A DNA stretch of 41,263 nucleotides. It comes from Holophagaceae bacterium (GTDB lineage: Bacteria; Acidobacteriota; Holophagae; Holophagales; Holophagaceae). The stretch spans positions 1-41,263 of the forward strand of contig JANYIU010000046.1 in assembly GCA_025361955.1 (NCBI GenBank), in the 5' to 3' direction. Below are positions 30,906 through 41,263 of this stretch, piece by piece (position 1 is the first letter of the stretch; every line of letters begins with the position of its first letter). A model generated the notes under the pieces. The model was not told the origin of the DNA and did not search any database. It saw nothing but the letters and a program-made list of their open reading frames with translations. The position numbers and the translations under genes were made by a program.

Positions 30906-31196
30906 GTGATCGTTTCTTTTGGTGATAAGTCAACGGAGGCGCTTTTCGATGGTGGTCCCAGAAAGGATTACAAGACCTTCCCGCCCAACTTGCTTGCGGT
31001 CGCTTTGCGAAAGCTCGATATGCTCAATGCTGCAGCCACTCTGGGAGATCTTCGTGCCCCTCCAGGCAATAGACTGGAACCCCTTGAAGGGAACTTGGCT
31101 GGGCTTTACAGCATTCGGGTGAACGACCAGTGGCGCGTCGTCTTTCGATGGGAAGGGTCAGACGCCTTTGACGTACGCATTAAGGATTACCACTGA
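30906..31196 (+). CDS. higB: HigB-like (RelE superfamily) toxin
   Basis: MIVSFGDKSTEALFDGG...LRKLDMLNAAATLGDLRAPPGNRLEPLEGNLAGLYSIRVNDQWRVVFRWEGSDAFDVRIKDYH is the canonical HigB pattern. Confidence 0.95.
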   Translation: MIVSFGDKSTEALFDGGPRKDYKTFPPNLLAVALRKLDMLNAAATLGDLRAPPGNRLEPLEGNLAGLYSIRVNDQWRVVFRWEGSDAFDVRIKDYH

Positions 31197-31210
31197 AAGT
31201 CAGGTGCCCC

Positions 31211-31498
31211 ATGATTCCAAGCCACCGCAACCCCACCCATCCTGGCGAGATCCTTCTTGAGGAGTTTCTGGTTCCTCTAGGGATCACCCAGGTTCTGCTT
31301 GCTTCTCACATCGGTGTTCCGGTCCAGCGAGTCAATGAGCTTGTTCGGGGTAAGCGTGGCGTCACCCCTGAAACGGCATGGCTGTTGAGCAAGGCCTTCA
31401 GCACCACACCCGAATTCTGGCTGAACCTTCAAGCCACCTGCGACCTCTACCAGAGTCGCCCCCAGCGCACGATCCATCCCTTGCGGAAGGTCGGGTAG
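31211..31498 (+). CDS. higA: HigA-like antitoxin (XRE)
   Basis: NPTHPGEILLEEFLVPLGITQVLLASHIGVPVQRVNELVRGKRGVTPETAWLLSKAFSTTPEFWLNLQATCDLY. Confidence 0.95.
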   Translation: MIPSHRNPTHPGEILLEEFLVPLGITQVLLASHIGVPVQRVNELVRGKRGVTPETAWLLSKAFSTTPEFWLNLQATCDLYQSRPQRTIHPLRKVG

Positions 31499-32292: not shown

Positions 32293-34971
32293 ATGACATA
32301 CTTGCCTCAAGGTACTCGAATGTGCGGCGCTACTTCTGTCCTATGGGCAAAGACAAGCCAGAATGCTGTGGAATGCTTCCATCCACTGCTGCTCCATCTC
32401 TTGGATGTAGCGTGTTGTGCAGAGGCGATCCTTGAGAGAGAACCCAGCACAACTCGGGTGAAACTGGCAGATATTCTTGGCCTATCCTGGTGCGATGCCA
32501 AGCCCTGGCTGTTGCTCATCATCGCCTGCCATGATTTGGGGAAGGCCTGTGCAGGGTTCCAGATCAAGTGGCCAGCCTCCAAGCCTAGATTGGTGGCTGC
32601 AGGGCTGTGCTTCCCCCCGGGCCTTGATCGACCCATCAACCATGCTTTTGTCAGTCAAGTTGTGTTGGTGGATCTTCTGGGTGAACAAGGCTGGCCTGAG
32701 GACTTGGCAAGAATGGTGGCCGACGCGGTGGGCTGCCATCACGGAGAGAGAGCAACACCAACAACTCTGAATGAATTGACACATGATCGGAGGGTTCAAG
32801 AACGTTCCTGGATCCAAGCCCGGCGGACCCTTTTTATCGCTTTGCTCGACTTCTTCCGGCCCATAAACGTCCCCGTCAAGCTTGCCCTCTCCGGCCCTGA
32901 TTTCATGCTGCTCTCTGGCCTTACAAGCTTTGCGGACTGGATTGGTTCCGACGAGACCCATTTCACCTTTGGCCAAGTTGATGAATGCGCGGATATCCCG
33001 GCTTGGTGGGCATCCCGACAACCCATTGCTGAAGCGTCCCTGGATGCCATCGGTTGGCTGCAGCGCGCCCCTTTGCTTCAGACTGAACGCACCTTTCAGG
33101 AAGTGTTTGGGTTCAGCCCCAGGCCACTCCAACAGAAAGTCGCGGAGGCTTTGGCTGCTGTGGACGGGCCGTGTGTTTTGCTGTTGGAAGCACCTATGGG
33201 CGAAGGCAAGACTGAAGCTGCTTTTTATGCTCATCTCGAACTCCAGCGCCGCTTTGGTCACCGTGGCCTTTACATTGCGCTGCCCACCAAGGCGACGGGC
33301 AATGCCATGTTTGGTCGCACCCTGGAATTCCTTAAGACGTTTTCACCCGATCGGAACCTGGACTTTCAGCTCCTCCATGGCGGCACTGCTCTCAACGACT
33401 CCTATCAAGAGTTGAAGCGCGCCACGATCCATGATCCTGAAGGCGAGGGGCGCGTGCGGGTGGGTGAATGGTTCACTCACCGCAAGCGGGCCCTACTTTC
33501 CGAATATGGCGTGGGCACTGTGGATCAGGCCCTCCTGCCGATCCTTCCAGTGCGGCACCAGTTTGTGCGCCTGTGGGGTCTGGCCAACCGCGTGGTGGTG
33601 TTTGACGAGATCCATGCCTATGACGCCTACACCGGCACCCTGCTCATTCACCTCATCCAATGGTTGGTGGCTCTTGGGGCTTCCGTTGTGCTCCTCTCAG
33701 CGACCCTGCCTCCCCGCATTCGGGCAAAGATCGTGGGTTCCCTGGGCAAGGCCATGCCAGATGAGCAGGCGCCTTATCCGCGTCTTACGGTGATCCAGCC
33801 AAGCGGCATTCAGCAGATGGGCTTTGAGGCTGATCCTTTGCGGCGCCAGCAGGTTGAAGTGGAACCGCTGTCATCCGATCTCTCTGCCATCCGATCCGCC
33901 CTCGATAGCCAGCTTCCAGAGGCCGGGTGCGCTCTGGCGCTGGTGAATACAGTGCAGCGAGCCCAGGATCTCTATAGCCTCTATTCCGAAGGTATTCCTT
34001 TGATGCGTGGCCGCCATCAGGTGGGAAAGCAACTGGAGGACGGCACAGAGATCCTGCTTTTCCACGCCCGATTTCCGGCTGACATTCGGCAAGCGAGAGA
34101 GGACAACGCTCTGGCTTCTTTTGGCAAGAAAAGTTTCAGAGAAGGCAGACGCATCCTCATCGCCACTCAGGTGGCCGAGCAGAGCTTGGATCTGGATTTC
34201 GACTTCATGGTGACAGACCTTGCCCCCATCGATCTGCTGCTGCAGCGCGCTGGGCGACTATGGAGGCATGATCGGGGTGGTCGTCCTTTGCCCCGTCCCC
34301 GCCTATTGGTTGCGGGCTTGGACGGTATAGAACCCAGTTCCTTCGGCGCACCCCTTTGGTGGGGGGCTGTGTACCGGGAGGATCTGCTACTGCGAACCTG
34401 GCTCTTGCTCAAAGAACATCCCCAAATGACCTTGCCAGATGACATAGACGGGTTTGTGCAGGCTGTTTATGAAGAAGAAGTGACTGTGCCGGAAGCCTTG
34501 CAGGAGCGGCTGGCGAAGGCCATCGAGAAGGAAGATGGCGCTTCTTATGCACACACAGGGAAAGCTCACGGGGCCATCATCGGCGACCCTGACAATGATT
34601 CCTGGAACGATCCTGCTCGATTCACCCAGGCCGACGAAGATGAGCCCGGTTTGCACCCAAGCCTTCGCGCCTTGACCCGATTGGGCGATCCATCAGTAAT
34701 GGTAGTGCCCATTCTCGCGGATGAAATCTTTGATCCCGCCCAGGCACCCAGCAGCGCCCAGGCCAAAGCGTGGTCCCTACGGGCACTGAGTATCAGCCAG
34801 AAGGCAGCCGTGGCCGAATGCCAAACCCAGGGAGTGCCCGATGGTTGGTCGCGTTCTCCTTTGCTGCGACATAGCTACGCTTTGCGTCTGGATAACGAGG
34901 GACGATGGCAGGAAAGCAAGAAGGTCCGCTTGGATCCAGCTCTAGGATTGGTTTTTGAAAGAAAGGAGTAG
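32293..34971 (+). CDS. cas3: CRISPR-associated helicase/nuclease Cas3 (type I-E)
   Basis: N-terminal HD domain (HPLLLHLLDVACCAEAIL, IACHDLGKACAGFQ). Helicase motifs LEAPMGEGKTEAAFYAHLE, VVFDEIHAYDAYTG, LLSATLPPRIR, LIATQVAEQSLDLDFDFMVTDLAPIDLLLQRAGRLWRH. Confidence 0.97.
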   Translation: MTYLPQGTRMCGATSVLWAKTSQNAVECFHPLLLHLLDVACCAEAILEREPSTTRVKLADILGLSWCDAKPWLLLIIACHDLGKACAGFQIKWPASKPRLVAAGLCFPPGLDRPINHAFVSQVVLVDLLGEQGWPEDLARMVADAVGCHHGERATPTTLNELTHDRRVQERSWIQARRTLFIALLDFFRPINVPVKLALSGPDFMLLSGLTSFADWIGSDETHFTFGQVDECADIPAWWASRQPIAEASLDAIGWLQRAPLLQTERTFQEVFGFSPRPLQQKVAEALAAVDGPCVLLLEAPMGEGKTEAAFYAHLELQRRFGHRGLYIALPTKATGNAMFGRTLEFLKTFSPDRNLDFQLLHGGTALNDSYQELKRATIHDPEGEGRVRVGEWFTHRKRALLSEYGVGTVDQALLPILPVRHQFVRLWGLANRVVVFDEIHAYDAYTGTLLIHLIQWLVALGASVVLLSATLPPRIRAKIVGSLGKAMPDEQAPYPRLTVIQPSGIQQMGFEADPLRRQQVEVEPLSSDLSAIRSALDSQLPEAGCALALVNTVQRAQDLYSLYSEGIPLMRGRHQVGKQLEDGTEILLFHARFPADIRQAREDNALASFGKKSFREGRRILIATQVAEQSLDLDFDFMVTDLAPIDLLLQRAGRLWRHDRGGRPLPRPRLLVAGLDGIEPSSFGAPLWWGAVYREDLLLRTWLLLKEHPQMTLPDDIDGFVQAVYEEEVTVPEALQERLAKAIEKEDGASYAHTGKAHGAIIGDPDNDSWNDPARFTQADEDEPGLHPSLRALTRLGDPSVMVVPILADEIFDPAQAPSSAQAKAWSLRALSISQKAAVAECQTQGVPDGWSRSPLLRHSYALRLDNEGRWQESKKVRLDPALGLVFERKE

Positions 34972-35087
34972 TGGACACGGCGGTGAATAAAAGCAGAGTC
35001 GAAGTTCACTGTTGATGGTGGTAGCCACCTACCGCGAGGTCGCCACTACCAAGCCTACAGTGAGGGGGTCTCCGGCACTAAGACACT

Positions 35088-35178
35088 CACAACATCCCCG
35101 GTGACCCGGGGAATATTTCGAAAACCGCTGACCTGAGTCCTCCAGTAATCGGACCATCCCCAGTATTTTGAGGAAAAC
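35088..35178 (-). ncRNA. Putative crRNA-like regulatory RNA (CreR/CreA-type): psi-repeat 1 (35150-35178), pseudo-spacer (35117-35149), psi-repeat 2 (35088-35116)
   Basis: Minus strand: GTTTTCCTCAAAATACTGGGGATGGTCCG / ATTACTGGAGGACTCAGGTCAGCGGTTTTCGAA / ATATTCCCCGGGTCACCGGGGATGTTGTG. Compared with the array repeat CCGTTCCCCGCACACGCGGGGATGATCCG, both psi-repeats match 17/29. The 3' 12 nt of psi-repeat 1 match 11/12. Period is 62 nt versus 61 nt in the array. Hairpins are preserved. Confidence 0.75.
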
Positions 35179-35203
35179 CCAGGATAGGACGACTGCGAAA
35201 AAA

Positions 35204-35238
35204 AAACTAGCCCATGCCCTGAGACCTCCTATAATCTT
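35204..35238 (-). promoter_or_regulatory. Predicted target of the crRNA-like RNA over the cas8e -10 element: PAM AAG (35236-35238) followed by protospacer ATTATAGGAGGTCTCAGGGCATGGG...
   Basis: The pseudo-spacer matches 17 of the first 21 target positions (mismatches at 5, 6, 12, 19). The target includes TATAAT (35230-35235 on the plus strand). Confidence 0.72.
35230..35235 (+). promoter_or_regulatory. Predicted -10 box (TATAAT) of the cas8e promoter
   Basis: Exact consensus TATAAT 50 bp upstream of the cas8e ATG. No good -35 is evident. Confidence 0.55.
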
Positions 35239-35284
35239 AGGTTGTAGATAGGACGACTTGAAATCAAAAACATAAGGATTCCTG

Positions 35285-36808
35285 ATGAGCCGATTCAATC
35301 TAATTGATGAGCCGTGGATCCCTCTGCGCCTCCCTGATGGGGGCCGCATTGAATTGGGCATCCGGGACACCCTTCTGCGCGCCTGGGAAATTGCAGCCAT
35401 TGAGGATCCCTCCCCGTTGGTGGTGTCGGCCCTTCATCGCTTTCTTCTGGCCGTGCTATATAGGGCTCTGGAGGGGCCCTGTGATATCACAGAGGCCAAA
35501 ATCCTCTTCGAGGAAAGGCTGCCAGCAGAGAAGATCAGCGCCTACCTAGGAAAGTGGCGGGATCGATTCTGGCTCTTCGACGAGGTGTTCCCCTTCAGTC
35601 AGATTCCATCATTTGAACCCAAAATTTGGCGTTCGTGGACGGTACTGGCGGCAGAGCACAATGCTGACAACGCGAAGGTTCTCTTCGACCACATTGATGT
35701 GCAGGAACCCGGTGTAATTGATGAAGCAGTCGCAACCCGCTGGCTGCTGGCGACACAAACCTTTGCTGTGAGTTGTGGGAAAAGTGAACTCTCTCATACC
35801 GGTACAGCGCCGTCGGCCACTGCCGCTCTGGTCATCCCGCTTGGGAAGAATCTTCAGGACACTCTTCTGATGTCACTGATCCCCCAAAATCGCCAGATTC
35901 TGGATGGAGATAGGCCACTGTGGGAACGTCCGCCAGAGGGAGTTGCGTCCCTGAAAGAAGGGAGAGAGCGCAGTGCAATAGGGCTCGCTGACCGGTATAC
36001 TTGGCGAACCCGATCCATTCGATTTAGAGATGACTGCACCGGTATCACCCAACTCGCTTTTGCATCTGGAGTCAATTGCTCCGCAATGGATCAGGTGGAT
36101 CCAATGCAGGCCTACCGCATTGACGAAAAGCGCGGACGACTCCCCTTACAATTTCGGGACAGAGGTATTTGGCGAGACTTCGATTCATTGCTGCCAGACA
36201 AGGAGAAGCTGTCTCCGCGCTCACTTGAACACGCGCTTTCGTTGGCCCAAGATCACCAAGATCGATTTCCCACCTCGGTTTTGGTGCTTGGGCAGAGCAA
36301 CGACAAGGCCAAGATCGAGTTCTGGCGCATGGAGCGGTTCACTTTGCCGACTGCACTTGCTGGAGACCGCTGCATCCGGGAGGACATTCATCGGTTCCTT
36401 GATCGGGCGGAAACCAGCCAGAAGGCGTTATGGTCTGCTTGCAACACCTTTGCTCGCTTTGTGATTGCACGGGGGGAACGAACACCAGACGGAAAGGATA
36501 CCAAAGCCTTCTTGGCTCAGATGCCCTGCATCCCGGTCTACTGGACCGCCCTTGAAGCCGCATTCCACGTCATCCTCCAGGCTTACACCTTGGACCAGGA
36601 TCCCTATGCAATTGAGCAGGATTGGGTCATCGCCGTGCGTGATGCCCTTCGCAATGCCTGGGACCTGCACCGGAGGACTGCCATATCGGGTGACGCCTGG
36701 ACTATTCGGGCCCTGGTGAAGGCCGATGGGGCTGTGGCGATGGAACTCAAGAAACTCGGAGTAGTCATCAAGGAATTCAACGACTTTCTGGCAAAGGAGG
36801 GGGCATGA
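35285..36808 (+). CDS. casA: Type I-E Cascade large subunit Cas8e/Cse1
   Basis: N-terminus MSRFNLIDEPWIPLRLPDGGRIELGIRDTLLRAWEIAAIEDPSPLVVSALHRFLLAVLYRAL is canonical Cse1. Confidence 0.96.
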   Translation: MSRFNLIDEPWIPLRLPDGGRIELGIRDTLLRAWEIAAIEDPSPLVVSALHRFLLAVLYRALEGPCDITEAKILFEERLPAEKISAYLGKWRDRFWLFDEVFPFSQIPSFEPKIWRSWTVLAAEHNADNAKVLFDHIDVQEPGVIDEAVATRWLLATQTFAVSCGKSELSHTGTAPSATAALVIPLGKNLQDTLLMSLIPQNRQILDGDRPLWERPPEGVASLKEGRERSAIGLADRYTWRTRSIRFRDDCTGITQLAFASGVNCSAMDQVDPMQAYRIDEKRGRLPLQFRDRGIWRDFDSLLPDKEKLSPRSLEHALSLAQDHQDRFPTSVLVLGQSNDKAKIEFWRMERFTLPTALAGDRCIREDIHRFLDRAETSQKALWSACNTFARFVIARGERTPDGKDTKAFLAQMPCIPVYWTALEAAFHVILQAYTLDQDPYAIEQDWVIAVRDALRNAWDLHRRTAISGDAWTIRALVKADGAVAMELKKLGVVIKEFNDFLAKEGA

Positions 36809-37326
36809 GTGCGTTCATCGAGTGGCTGGAAAGCCTGAATAAAAAGGACACCAAGGTGCGGGCTGTGCTGAAGCGCAGCCTTGCCTTCGACCCAGGAACC
36901 CATGTTCCCGCCTACCCCTATGTGGAACCATTTCTTCAGGGAGCCGAATGGCCCTGGCGCCGTACGGTGCATTACTTGGTGGCGGGCCTGTGGGCCGCCC
37001 ATTGGCGGGAAGGACGCGAGAGAACTGGCATACCGTTGGGCAGGGCCGCAGCTATCCATCAAGTCAGCAGTGGCTCAATCAGTACGGAAAACCGGTTTAT
37101 CACTCTGCTCGATGCTGATGAAGACCAGCTTCCCCATCGGTTGCGCCAGATAGCTGCTCTCTTGAAAGAGCAGCCGCTAGATTTCGAGCATCTCCTGGTA
37201 GGTCTTCTGCGCTGGAATGACGACAGTAAGCGGACTCAAAACGATTGGGCGCGTGACTTCTACCGCAACATCCGCGCTGAAAATGGCACCGAATCTGAAA
37301 CCCCTACAACCGAGGAAAAACTCTGA
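36805..37326 (+). CDS. casB: Type I-E Cascade small subunit Cse2/CasB
   Basis: Position in the operon, ATGA overlap, and Cse2-like [31 protein letters not shown]...[47 protein letters not shown]. Confidence 0.95.
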
Positions 37327-38486
37327 TGAGAACCCTGATCGAGATCCACGCCCTTCAGAACTTCGCGCCCTCCAACCTGAACCGAGACGATACCGGCGCT
37401 CCCAAGGATGCCTTCTTTGGTGGAACCCGCCGCGCCCGCATCAGCAGCCAATGTCTCAAGCGGGCTGTGCGCCAGTATTTCGGTTCCCTGGTGGAGCAGG
37501 GCGCCCTTGGTAAAGCGGATGTGGCTTCTCGTACCAAGCGGATTCTGGACACTCTCACTGAATTCCTGGTGGGGAAGGGGCGGGCCAAAGAGGATGCCGA
37601 ACAAAAGGCTCGCCTGGCTTTGGCCGCCATGGAACTCAATGTGAAGGAGGATGGCAAGAGCGAATATCTGCTTTTCCTTGGTCAGCGTGAAATCGCAGGA
37701 ATTGCTGAGATCATCCACGAAAAGTGGGACTCCATTTTCGCTTCCGAAGTGGCTCCAGTTGAGGGAAAGAAGTCGGGAAAGGCGAAGAAGCAAGCCGCCA
37801 GTGTCGCGGACCCTGAACTGAAGAAGGCCCTGGATAAGGTCTTCAATGGTGGCAAGGCGCTGGATGTGGCTCTCTTCGGGCGCATGCTGGCCGATATGCC
37901 CCAAAAAAACCAGAATGCCGCATGCCAGGTTGCCCATGCACTTTCCACCCACGCAGTAGACCGGGAATTCGACTTTTACACGGCTGTGGATGACCTCAAA
38001 CCTGAGGACACGGCGGGAGCCGACATGATGGGTACCGTGGAGTTCAATTCCGCTTGCTTCTACCGCTATGCGGTGGTGGATTGGGCCAAGCTGGTGGAGA
38101 ACCTCCAGGGGGACAAGGAGCTGGCTGAGAAGGGGCTGCGCGCCTTCCTGGAAGGATTCGTTGTGAGTGAACCCACGGGCAAACAGAACACTTTCGCCGC
38201 CCACAATCCGCCGGAATTCGTGGCGATCTCTGTTCGCCACAACACGGCTCCACGCAATCTGGCCAATGCTTTCGAGACTGCACTCCGGGCTAAGAAGGGC
38301 GAATCCATCACGCTCCTTTCTGCCGACAGGCTGGTGGATAAGGCCAAGAAACTCCAAACCGCCTATGGCGGCGACGGACAGACCTACGTGTTGAATCTCG
38401 TGGATGCCAAGATCGACAATTTCGGAAAGGCAGAGGAATCCCTGGATGCCCTGCTCAACAAATCTTTGAGTCTCGTGAGGGTCTGA
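37326..38486 (+). CDS. casC: Type I-E Cas7e/Cse4/CasC
   Basis: [70 protein letters not shown]. Confidence 0.97.
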
Positions 38487-39193
38487 TGGCTACGCTGCTT
38501 CTGCGTCTGGTGGGCCCCATGCAGTCCTGGGGTACCACCAGCCGCTTTGATCAACGCGATACCGGGAAGGAACCCAGCAAGTCGGGTGTGAGCGGCCTTC
38601 TGGCCGCTGCCCTTGGCATCGATCGGGGCAACTGGGCTGACTTGGAGCCACTGACGCATCTGGCCATGGCCGTGCGCCATGATCGGCCGGGATTGCCAAA
38701 GCACGACTACCAGACCGTCGGGTGTGCAAGGCAGGACACGATCATCCGGGCTGATGGTTCCCAGGCTAAGGATGGCGGTGTTGTGTCCACCCGCCACTAT
38801 CTGGCTGATGCTGCCTTCCTGGTGGGATTGGAAAGCCCGGATGTAGATCTTCTCGAACGCCTTCATGGCGCCCTCCAGGATCCTGTTTGGCTCCTGGCCT
38901 TGGGGCGCAAATCCTATCTTCCCGCCGAGCCTCTATGGTTACCGGATAGCCAGAATCCCATCCAGGGCGCCCCCTTGCGCCAGGTCATGGAACACCAACC
39001 GTGGCTTGCCACTCGACGAATGCAAGAGCAGGCGCCAGTGAAGCTGCTTATGTCCATGGAATCCTCGGATAGTTCAGGTGCCATGCGCATGGATCAGCCA
39101 ATCTCTTCCTTTGCCGAGCGTCGTTTTGGCGCACGCTTCGTTCATTCTGAATGGATCCCTTTTTCTGGTGGGGTGGCTGATGTTCCTGCATAG
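38486..39193 (+). CDS. casD: Type I-E Cas5e/CasD
   Basis: [47 protein letters not shown]. Confidence 0.97.
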   Translation: MATLLLRLVGPMQSWGTTSRFDQRDTGKEPSKSGVSGLLAAALGIDRGNWADLEPLTHLAMAVRHDRPGLPKHDYQTVGCARQDTIIRADGSQAKDGGVVSTRHYLADAAFLVGLESPDVDLLERLHGALQDPVWLLALGRKSYLPAEPLWLPDSQNPIQGAPLRQVMEHQPWLATRRMQEQAPVKLLMSMESSDSSGAMRMDQPISSFAERRFGARFVHSEWIPFSGGVADVPA

Positions 39194-39856
39194 GCTCCAC
39201 CTCAACCTGCGCTGTCGGGAGGTCCGTCGCGATCTGGCGGACCCCTACCAGCTCCACGCTACGCTTTGTCGGGCCTTTAGCCCTGAGGATAAGAGATGCT
39301 TGCCGGGTGCCTTCCTATGGCGATTGGAGCCGGAAACAGACGCTTCCAGCGCTCCACGCATCCTGATTCAGAGCCGCGAAATCCCAGACTGGCCCAGGAT
39401 CAATCTCTCCAACTGGTTGGAGCGGGACCCCGACCCCGCTGTGAATTTAGTTGAACGATTGAAAATGGATGCAATGAGAGCGGGCCAGCGCTATCGCTTT
39501 CGCCTCCGAGCCAATCCTGCTACGTCCAAAAATGGAAAGCGGCTGGGGCTCCTGAAATTGGAGGACCAGGAAGCATGGCTCCTGCGAAAGGGTCAGAAGC
39601 AGCATGGATTCACTTTGCCGTGTCTGACCGCCTTTGATGCCTACGAAGGCACGGAAGCCCGCGTAGATGTGCGTATCTCCCAGGAGCAGATGCTTCGTGC
39701 GCGCCAGCATGACGGCAACGGCATCCGGGTCTTCTCCGTGCTCTTTGACGGAACCCTGGAAGTCACGGAACCCGATGCCTTTAGGGTGGCCCTGACAAGT
39801 GGCATTGGGCATGGCAAGGCCCTGGGCCTGGGGCTACTCTCCGTGATACCCGTGTC

Positions 39857-39860
<4 letters not shown>
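39180..39860 (+). CDS. casE: Type I-E Cas6e/CasE crRNA endoribonuclease
   Basis: MFLHRLHLNLRCREVRRDLADPYQLHATLCRAF; C-terminal ALTSGIGHGKALGLGLLSVIPVS glycine-rich loop. Start moved from the ORF-track start (39078) to ATG 39180. Confidence 0.95.
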
Positions 39861-41104
<1,244 letters not shown>

Positions 41105-41121: not shown

Positions 41122-41263
41122 CCGTTCCCCGCACACGCGGGGATGATCCGCTGGTCTAATGCTGGGGCTATTGACAATACCACCGTTCCCCGCACACGCG
41201 GGGATGATCCGTTCACCGGCTGGAGCATAAGCGGTTATGGTTGCCGTTCCCCGCACACGCGGG
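41122..41263 (+). CRISPR. Type I-E CRISPR array (start only, runs off the window): 29-bp repeat CCGTTCCCCGCACACGCGGGGATGATCCG, 32-bp spacers
   Basis: Repeats at 41122-41150, 41183-41211 and 41244-41263 (truncated). Spacers at 41151-41182 and 41212-41243. Exact 61-bp period. Confidence 0.98.

Follow-up and report, generated by a model that had tools for sequence, protein, structure and literature searches.

In the genome of a Holophagaceae bacterium, the cas3 and cas8e genes of a type I-E CRISPR-Cas locus are separated by a gap of 313 nt (34972–35284), and an earlier note, made from the sequence alone, proposed that this gap carries a degenerate mini-CRISPR encoding a crRNA-resembling RNA of the CreR or CreA class. 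Does the gap encode such a guide, and which promoter would the guide address? The window analysed here, that is, the whole 41,263-nt stretch of DNA, encompasses the complete type I-E locus and the start of its CRISPR array, with profile matches to every Cascade gene, cas6e and cas3:

32293–34971, plus strand: cas3, HD nuclease-helicase (PF18019, PF22590 and TIGR01587 over cut-off)
35285–36808, plus strand: cas8e (casA/cse1; TIGR02547, PF09481), first gene of the presumed repressed operon
36805–37326, plus strand: cas11 (casB/cse2; TIGR02548)
37326–38486, plus strand: cas7e (TIGR01869)
38486–39193, plus strand: cas5e (TIGR01868)
39078–39860, plus strand: cas6e (PF08798), an open frame whose real start is probably further in
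39857–40768, plus strand: cas1e (TIGR03638)
40749–41099, plus strand: cas2e (PF09707)
41122–41263, plus strand (crRNA sense): CRISPR array, ending at the contig end

The array repeat, CCGTTCCCCGCACACGCGGGGATGATCCG, occurs on the plus strand at 41122–41150 and 41183–41211 and has no further copy in the genome. The contig stops inside the array after these two full repeats, and the remaining array is absent from the assembly. Viral contigs yielded no match to cas7e or to the two complete array spacers, and no Rfam family matched in the window. Upstream of cas3 lies a HigBA-like toxin-antitoxin pair (30906–31498), in which the second gene scores over the cut-off for HigA antitoxins and the first matches a Txe/YoeB-type toxin below the cut-off.

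Anatomy of the degenerate mini-CRISPR

The minus strand of the gap reads, in this order, as psi-repeat 1, a psi-spacer and psi-repeat 2 of the putative creR gene:

35150–35178, minus strand: psi-repeat 1, GTTTTCCTCAAAATACTGGGGATGGTCCG (17/29 identity to the array repeat; 6-pair stem)
35117–35149, minus strand: psi-spacer, ATTACTGGAGGACTCAGGTCAGCGGTTTTCGAA, 33 nt, between the psi-repeats
35088–35116, minus strand: psi-repeat 2, ATATTCCCCGGGTCACCGGGGATGTTGTG (17/29 identity to the array repeat; folds into a hairpin)

The sequences, the coordinates (35088–35178, minus strand), the 62-nt spacing of the units and the lengths of psi-spacer and gap are all as the earlier note described them. With only 17 of 29 positions identical to the array repeat, neither psi-repeat comes close to the near-identity of repeats that defines an ordinary CRISPR array or miniarray capable of growth at a leader. 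Nevertheless, the similarity exceeds chance: the summed identity of the pair, 34/58, was reached by none of 2000 dinucleotide shuffles of the gap and by none of the 221 other tiles of the window, the best value being 32 in both cases, which bears out the presence of a degenerate mini-CRISPR between cas3 and cas8e. A 123-aa open reading frame that runs over it on the minus strand (35029–35400) is without a family match and was taken as a chance occurrence.

The two psi-repeats diverge from the array repeat asymmetrically, such that the handle is retained in psi-repeat 1 (7/8 positions of the 5' handle against 10/21 of the rest) and the stem in psi-repeat 2 (12/21 positions of the stem part against 5/8 of the handle). 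Judging by the sequence, psi-repeat 1 would yield the 8-nt 5' handle AUGGUCCG, and psi-repeat 2 would yield the 3' hairpin handle bound by Cas6e. In creA genes, the psi-repeats decay divergently in the same sense, given that the 5' handle must come from psi-repeat 1 and the 3' handle from psi-repeat 2 (PMC8501985). The hairpin previously recognized in psi-repeat 2 has a predicted folding energy of -15.2 kcal/mol, like that of the array repeat (-14.5 kcal/mol) and well beyond shuffles of psi-repeat 2 (-8.2 +/- 2.5). The 6-pair stem claimed for psi-repeat 1 is likewise predicted to form (-6.8 kcal/mol), but psi-repeat 1 folds barely better than its own shuffles (-4.7 +/- 2.0).

A psi-spacer target in the predicted cas8e promoter

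The decisive feature of the locus, absent from the earlier note, is a target of the psi-spacer. A comparison of the psi-spacer with the entire window placed its best match, apart from itself, at the likely cas8e promoter:

about 35204–35235, minus strand: protospacer-like target of the putative creR (15/18 matches at positions 1–18, 20/32 overall)
35236–35238, minus strand: PAM AAG, directly 5' of the target
35230–35235, plus strand: TATAAT, a perfect -10 hexamer in the presumed promoter of cas8e

The guide ATTACTGGAGGACTCAGG is aligned here with ATTATAGGAGGTCTCAGG of the target (minus strand). Among positions 1–18, mismatches are found only at 5, 6 and 12; further matches follow at positions 20, 21, 24 and 25, and the tail of the psi-spacer (26–33) does not match the target. 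If positions 6 and 12 are disregarded, positions 1–17 show 14 matches out of 15; in 5000 shuffles of that half of the gap which contains the promoter, no more than 12 matches were obtained, with or without the PAM, and the next-best site elsewhere in the window is far lower. The 15-position test pattern ATTANNGGAGGNCTCAG has two exact matches in the 3.06-Mb genome, namely, the psi-spacer and the cas8e promoter site.

Because its -35 element is weak, the cas8e promoter is likely rather than proven, and it is missing from the listing of the consensus scan for the same reason; the TATAAT hexamer is followed by the Shine-Dalgarno-like AAGGA and then, about 50 nt past the hexamer, by the cas8e ATG (35285). 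Sequence scans for a minus-strand promoter or terminator of creR gave no convincing candidate. The minus-strand PAM sits within TAAGAT (35234–35239), a possible -10 element of creR; if this element is real, CreR would silence its own promoter, too.

The distribution of mismatches can be read against CreA. Positions 6 and 12 are not read by Cascade and proved dispensable when CreA was mutagenized; one haloarchaeal CreA lost its function upon each single change at positions 1–5 or 7–11 (PMC8501985). Under this seed rule, 9 of the 10 positions match here, position 5 being the exception, and single exceptions are also found in other type I-E loci. The chief flaw of the match is this mismatch at position 5, which might result in weaker repression or be compensated by the longer pairing.

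Similar elements in other type I-E loci

We searched 86 type I-E loci with a detector in which psi-repeat 1 had to be handle-like and have a stem, the stem of psi-repeat 2 had to follow at crRNA distance, a PAM had to be present, and the match was scored with positions 6, 12 and 18 ignored. Reversed-target decoys served as the control; a looser first detector was swamped by array-derived matches, and the decoy-controlled version was used in its place. Five loci scored 14/15 and none scored 13, and the decoys reached at most 13, once. These five are the present window and the loci of Streptantibioticus silvisoli (L037), Tessaracoccus caeni (L064), Microbacterium suaedae (L041) and a Chloroflexi metagenome-assembled genome (L015); in all of them, the psi-repeat pair lies just upstream of cas3 or cas8e. 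Of the six skip phases that were tested, only 6/12/18 yields five loci at 14; the others yield at most one, L015, which matches in any phase. The L037 layout is the same as that in the window, that is, antisense in a 217-nt cas3-cas8e gap, with a same-strand target close to cas8e.

Ten loci on Streptomyces plasmids, in which a gap separates cas3 from casA, show the same antisense layout and an AAN PAM. In these loci, which were ranked without skipping any position, 9–11 of the 11 seed positions match, and the runner-up sites reach 4–6. Altogether, a psi-spacer with an AAN PAM and a seed match is present in 14 type I-E loci besides the one analysed here, in 11 of them antisense between cas3 and cas8e:

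L037, 9773–9979, antisense in the cas3-casA gap: candidate CreR of Streptantibioticus silvisoli (AAN PAM, seed match near the casA start)
L101, L102, L104–L107 and L112–L115, antisense in the cas3-casA gaps: candidate CreR genes of Streptomyces plasmids (AAN PAM, seed match near the casA start)
L015, 5792–5960, cas sense: candidate CreR upstream of cas3, Chloroflexi metagenome-assembled genome
L064, 6895–7050, cas sense: candidate CreR upstream of cas3, Tessaracoccus caeni
L041, 6796–7041, cas sense: candidate CreR upstream of cas3, Microbacterium suaedae

Position 6 is mismatched in 12 of the 15 loci, including most of the Streptantibioticus and Streptomyces candidates, compared to 6/150 for the other ten seed positions together, although these amount to fewer than 15 independent cases because several of the Streptomyces loci are close kin. 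Position 6 was outside the selection in the detector set and was scored like any other position in the Streptomyces set. Among the related Streptomyces loci, guide and target vary together, with GCTTGGTACTT accompanied by GCTTGTTACTT in L104 and GCTTGATGTTC by GCTTGTTGTTC in L115. Taken together, these loci suggest that guides of this kind recurrently reside in the cas3-cas8e gap of type I-E operons in distant bacteria and, further, that the mismatch spacing, with positions 6 and 12 free, could be used for their computational discovery. The promoter target behind an AAG PAM, together with the recurrence of the layout and of the position-6 signature in other type I-E loci, supports the earlier reading of the element as a gene for a crRNA-resembling RNA.

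In the eight best cas8e relatives (47–63% identity) and in one member of the same family, cas3 adjoins cas8e and there is no gap. With the eight closest relatives lacking the gap, the element was either gained in this lineage or lost in those of the relatives. A comparison of the gap DNA with 93 genomes of the class retrieved nothing past a 39-bp match at E = 1e-3. On a Streptomyces virginiae plasmid (L108, 2390–3200), the 1.1-kb gap between cas3 and casA resembles a CRISPR array in decay, with numerous degenerate units that look like repeats, several of them spaced by 61 nt.

Identity, mechanism and origin of the element

The similarity between the creR side and the promoter side of the gap runs past the psi-spacer, and includes an exact direct repeat:

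35183–35194, plus strand: copy 1 of GATAGGACGACT, beside psi-repeat 1 on its leader side
35247–35258, plus strand: copy 2 of GATAGGACGACT, 64 bp away from the first, within the presumed leader of cas8e

These are the only exact copies of the 12-mer in the genome, and they flank the cas8e -10 region; the 12-mer stands upstream of psi-repeat 1 and of the target and is followed on the plus strand, in both places, by similar A-rich DNA. The extended alignment has a local score of 23, which was reached by 1 of 2000 shuffles, and the alignment of the leader-side flanks is significant by itself (0/1000 shuffles, p < 0.001); the 11 other loci tested showed no such flank similarity. This pattern suggests either a duplication of the promoter region with an inserted repeat or a shared operator.

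A local duplication of the cas8e promoter could produce the match without any guiding by RNA, the 12-bp repeats then being operators of an ordinary transcription factor, and both the similarity that continues into the flank and the confinement of the two 12-mers to this gap speak for such an event. However, duplication leaves unexplained why the match is bracketed by two psi-repeats in register and at the spacing of a crRNA, why an AAG PAM is correctly placed, and why the layout recurs in unrelated loci without flank similarity. We therefore consider it highly improbable as a substitute for guiding; the guide may well have originated in this way instead. The weak stem of psi-repeat 1 and the mismatch at seed position 5, both of which count against creR, together with the lack of a strong creR promoter, would be compatible with a dead remnant, that is, a former self-targeting or regulatory mini-CRISPR that is now merely decaying. 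Neutral decay, however, would not spare precisely the processing and guiding parts (the psi-repeat 1 handle, the psi-repeat 2 stem, the seed and the PAM) and confine the mismatches in the first 18 positions to 5, 6 and 12, so that this scenario appears improbable.

The anatomy of the element is common to CreA and CreR, and in principle the RNA could be a CreA, the antitoxin of a CreTA module, that represses a toxin gene and not the cas operon. This we find hardly credible, given that the target is at the cas8e promoter, that the 46 nt from the PAM to the cas8e ATG contain no ATG-started mini-ORF and end in the AAGGA motif, and that the psi-spacer, compared with every position of the window, does not match the HigBA-like pair. 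Since the psi-spacer addresses the cas8e promoter and the stretch behind its target is too short for a toxin gene, the original alternative of CreR or CreA narrows to CreR, that is, to cas autorepression. A crRNA-like gene with repeat-like ends is present inside a type I-E locus, its psi-spacer partially matches the predicted promoter of the cas operon beside a PAM, and no toxin gene is coupled to that promoter. We conclude that the element is probably the creR gene of the resident type I-E system, with a probability of about 85%.

Because the guide matches the neighbouring cas promoter, the CRISPR machinery most likely lowers its own production, and the regulated unit is likely the cas8e-cas2 operon. 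Autorepression is the best reading of the match, and from it we infer the following course of events. The minus-strand creR transcript would be cut by Cas6e after both psi-repeats, yielding a crRNA-like RNA of 61–62 nt with AUGGUCCG as its 5' handle and with the hairpin of psi-repeat 2. Cascade carrying this CreR would bind the cas8e promoter (35204–35238), where the R-loop over the -10 box would shut out RNA polymerase and thus repress cas8e-cas11-cas7e-cas5e-cas6e-cas1-cas2. Pairing would fail past approximately position 25, such that cleavage by Cas3 would be avoided. Pairing well short of the full spacer fits repression without cleavage: with a spacer of 24 nt, a type I-B system repressed the target, while interference and primed adaptation were lost (PMC10989794). 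By analogy with published CreRs, repression would be lifted when crRNAs or anti-CRISPR proteins draw Cascade off; reviews describe relief by excess crRNA or by anti-CRISPR proteins (PMC12737573, PMC12948488, PMC13131331).

Regulation of this type is already known from other bacteria and archaea, so that the putative creR adds a case rather than a new class; with its target, PAM and predicted mutations specified, the suspected mini-CRISPR has become an autoregulatory circuit that can be put to the test. Liu et al. (2023) reportedly described CreRs as cas-regulating RNAs of type I-B, I-E and V-A systems. CreRs are stated for the same three types in a review (PMC13131331). As described in reviews, these RNAs resemble the present element in the mini-CRISPR within the cas locus, the partial match to the cas-operon promoter, the lack of a toxin gene and the co-option of the resident Cascade. 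Differences in our case are the pairing to position 18 (plus 20, 21, 24 and 25) with one true seed mismatch, at position 5, and the guide-target similarity that extends into the flank with its exact 12-bp direct repeat. The CreA RNAs of Haloarcula hispanica and H. hubeiense share with it the two diverged psi-repeats, with the handle in the first and the stem in the second, the seed of positions 1–5 and 7–11 with 6 and 12 free, and the PAM beside a promoter target, but they address a toxin promoter in a type I-B setting rather than a cas promoter in type I-E (PMC8501985). The Streptomyces and Streptantibioticus mini-CRISPRs are alike in gap and strand, in the same-strand target upstream of casA, in the AAN PAM and, mostly, in the position-6 mismatch, whereas the Streptomyces guides match chiefly over the 11-nt seed and show no flank similarity. 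A natural single guide is also known for Cas9 of Streptococcus pyogenes, namely, tracr-L, the long form of the tracrRNA. There, too, a guide from outside the array takes the effector to a cas promoter, resulting in autorepression, but the effector is of class 2, the guide derives from tracrRNA, and the two are not homologous. Autorepression by tracr-L is named in one of the reviews (PMC13131331).

The flank similarity is a rare hint as to the possible joint origin of a regulatory guide and the promoter that it targets. Tentatively, and with considerable doubt, we envisage that creR was born from its own target: a cas8e promoter segment of ~70 bp would have been copied alongside the original, a CRISPR repeat would have come to lie between the copied -10 element, now the guide, and the copied GATAGGACGACT, and the copies would have diverged mainly where Cascade does not read. 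A perfect 12-mer beside a 76% (19/25) match leans towards some constraint on the 12-mer itself. If creR did arise by duplication of its target, the 12-mer would still be common to both promoters as a second control site.
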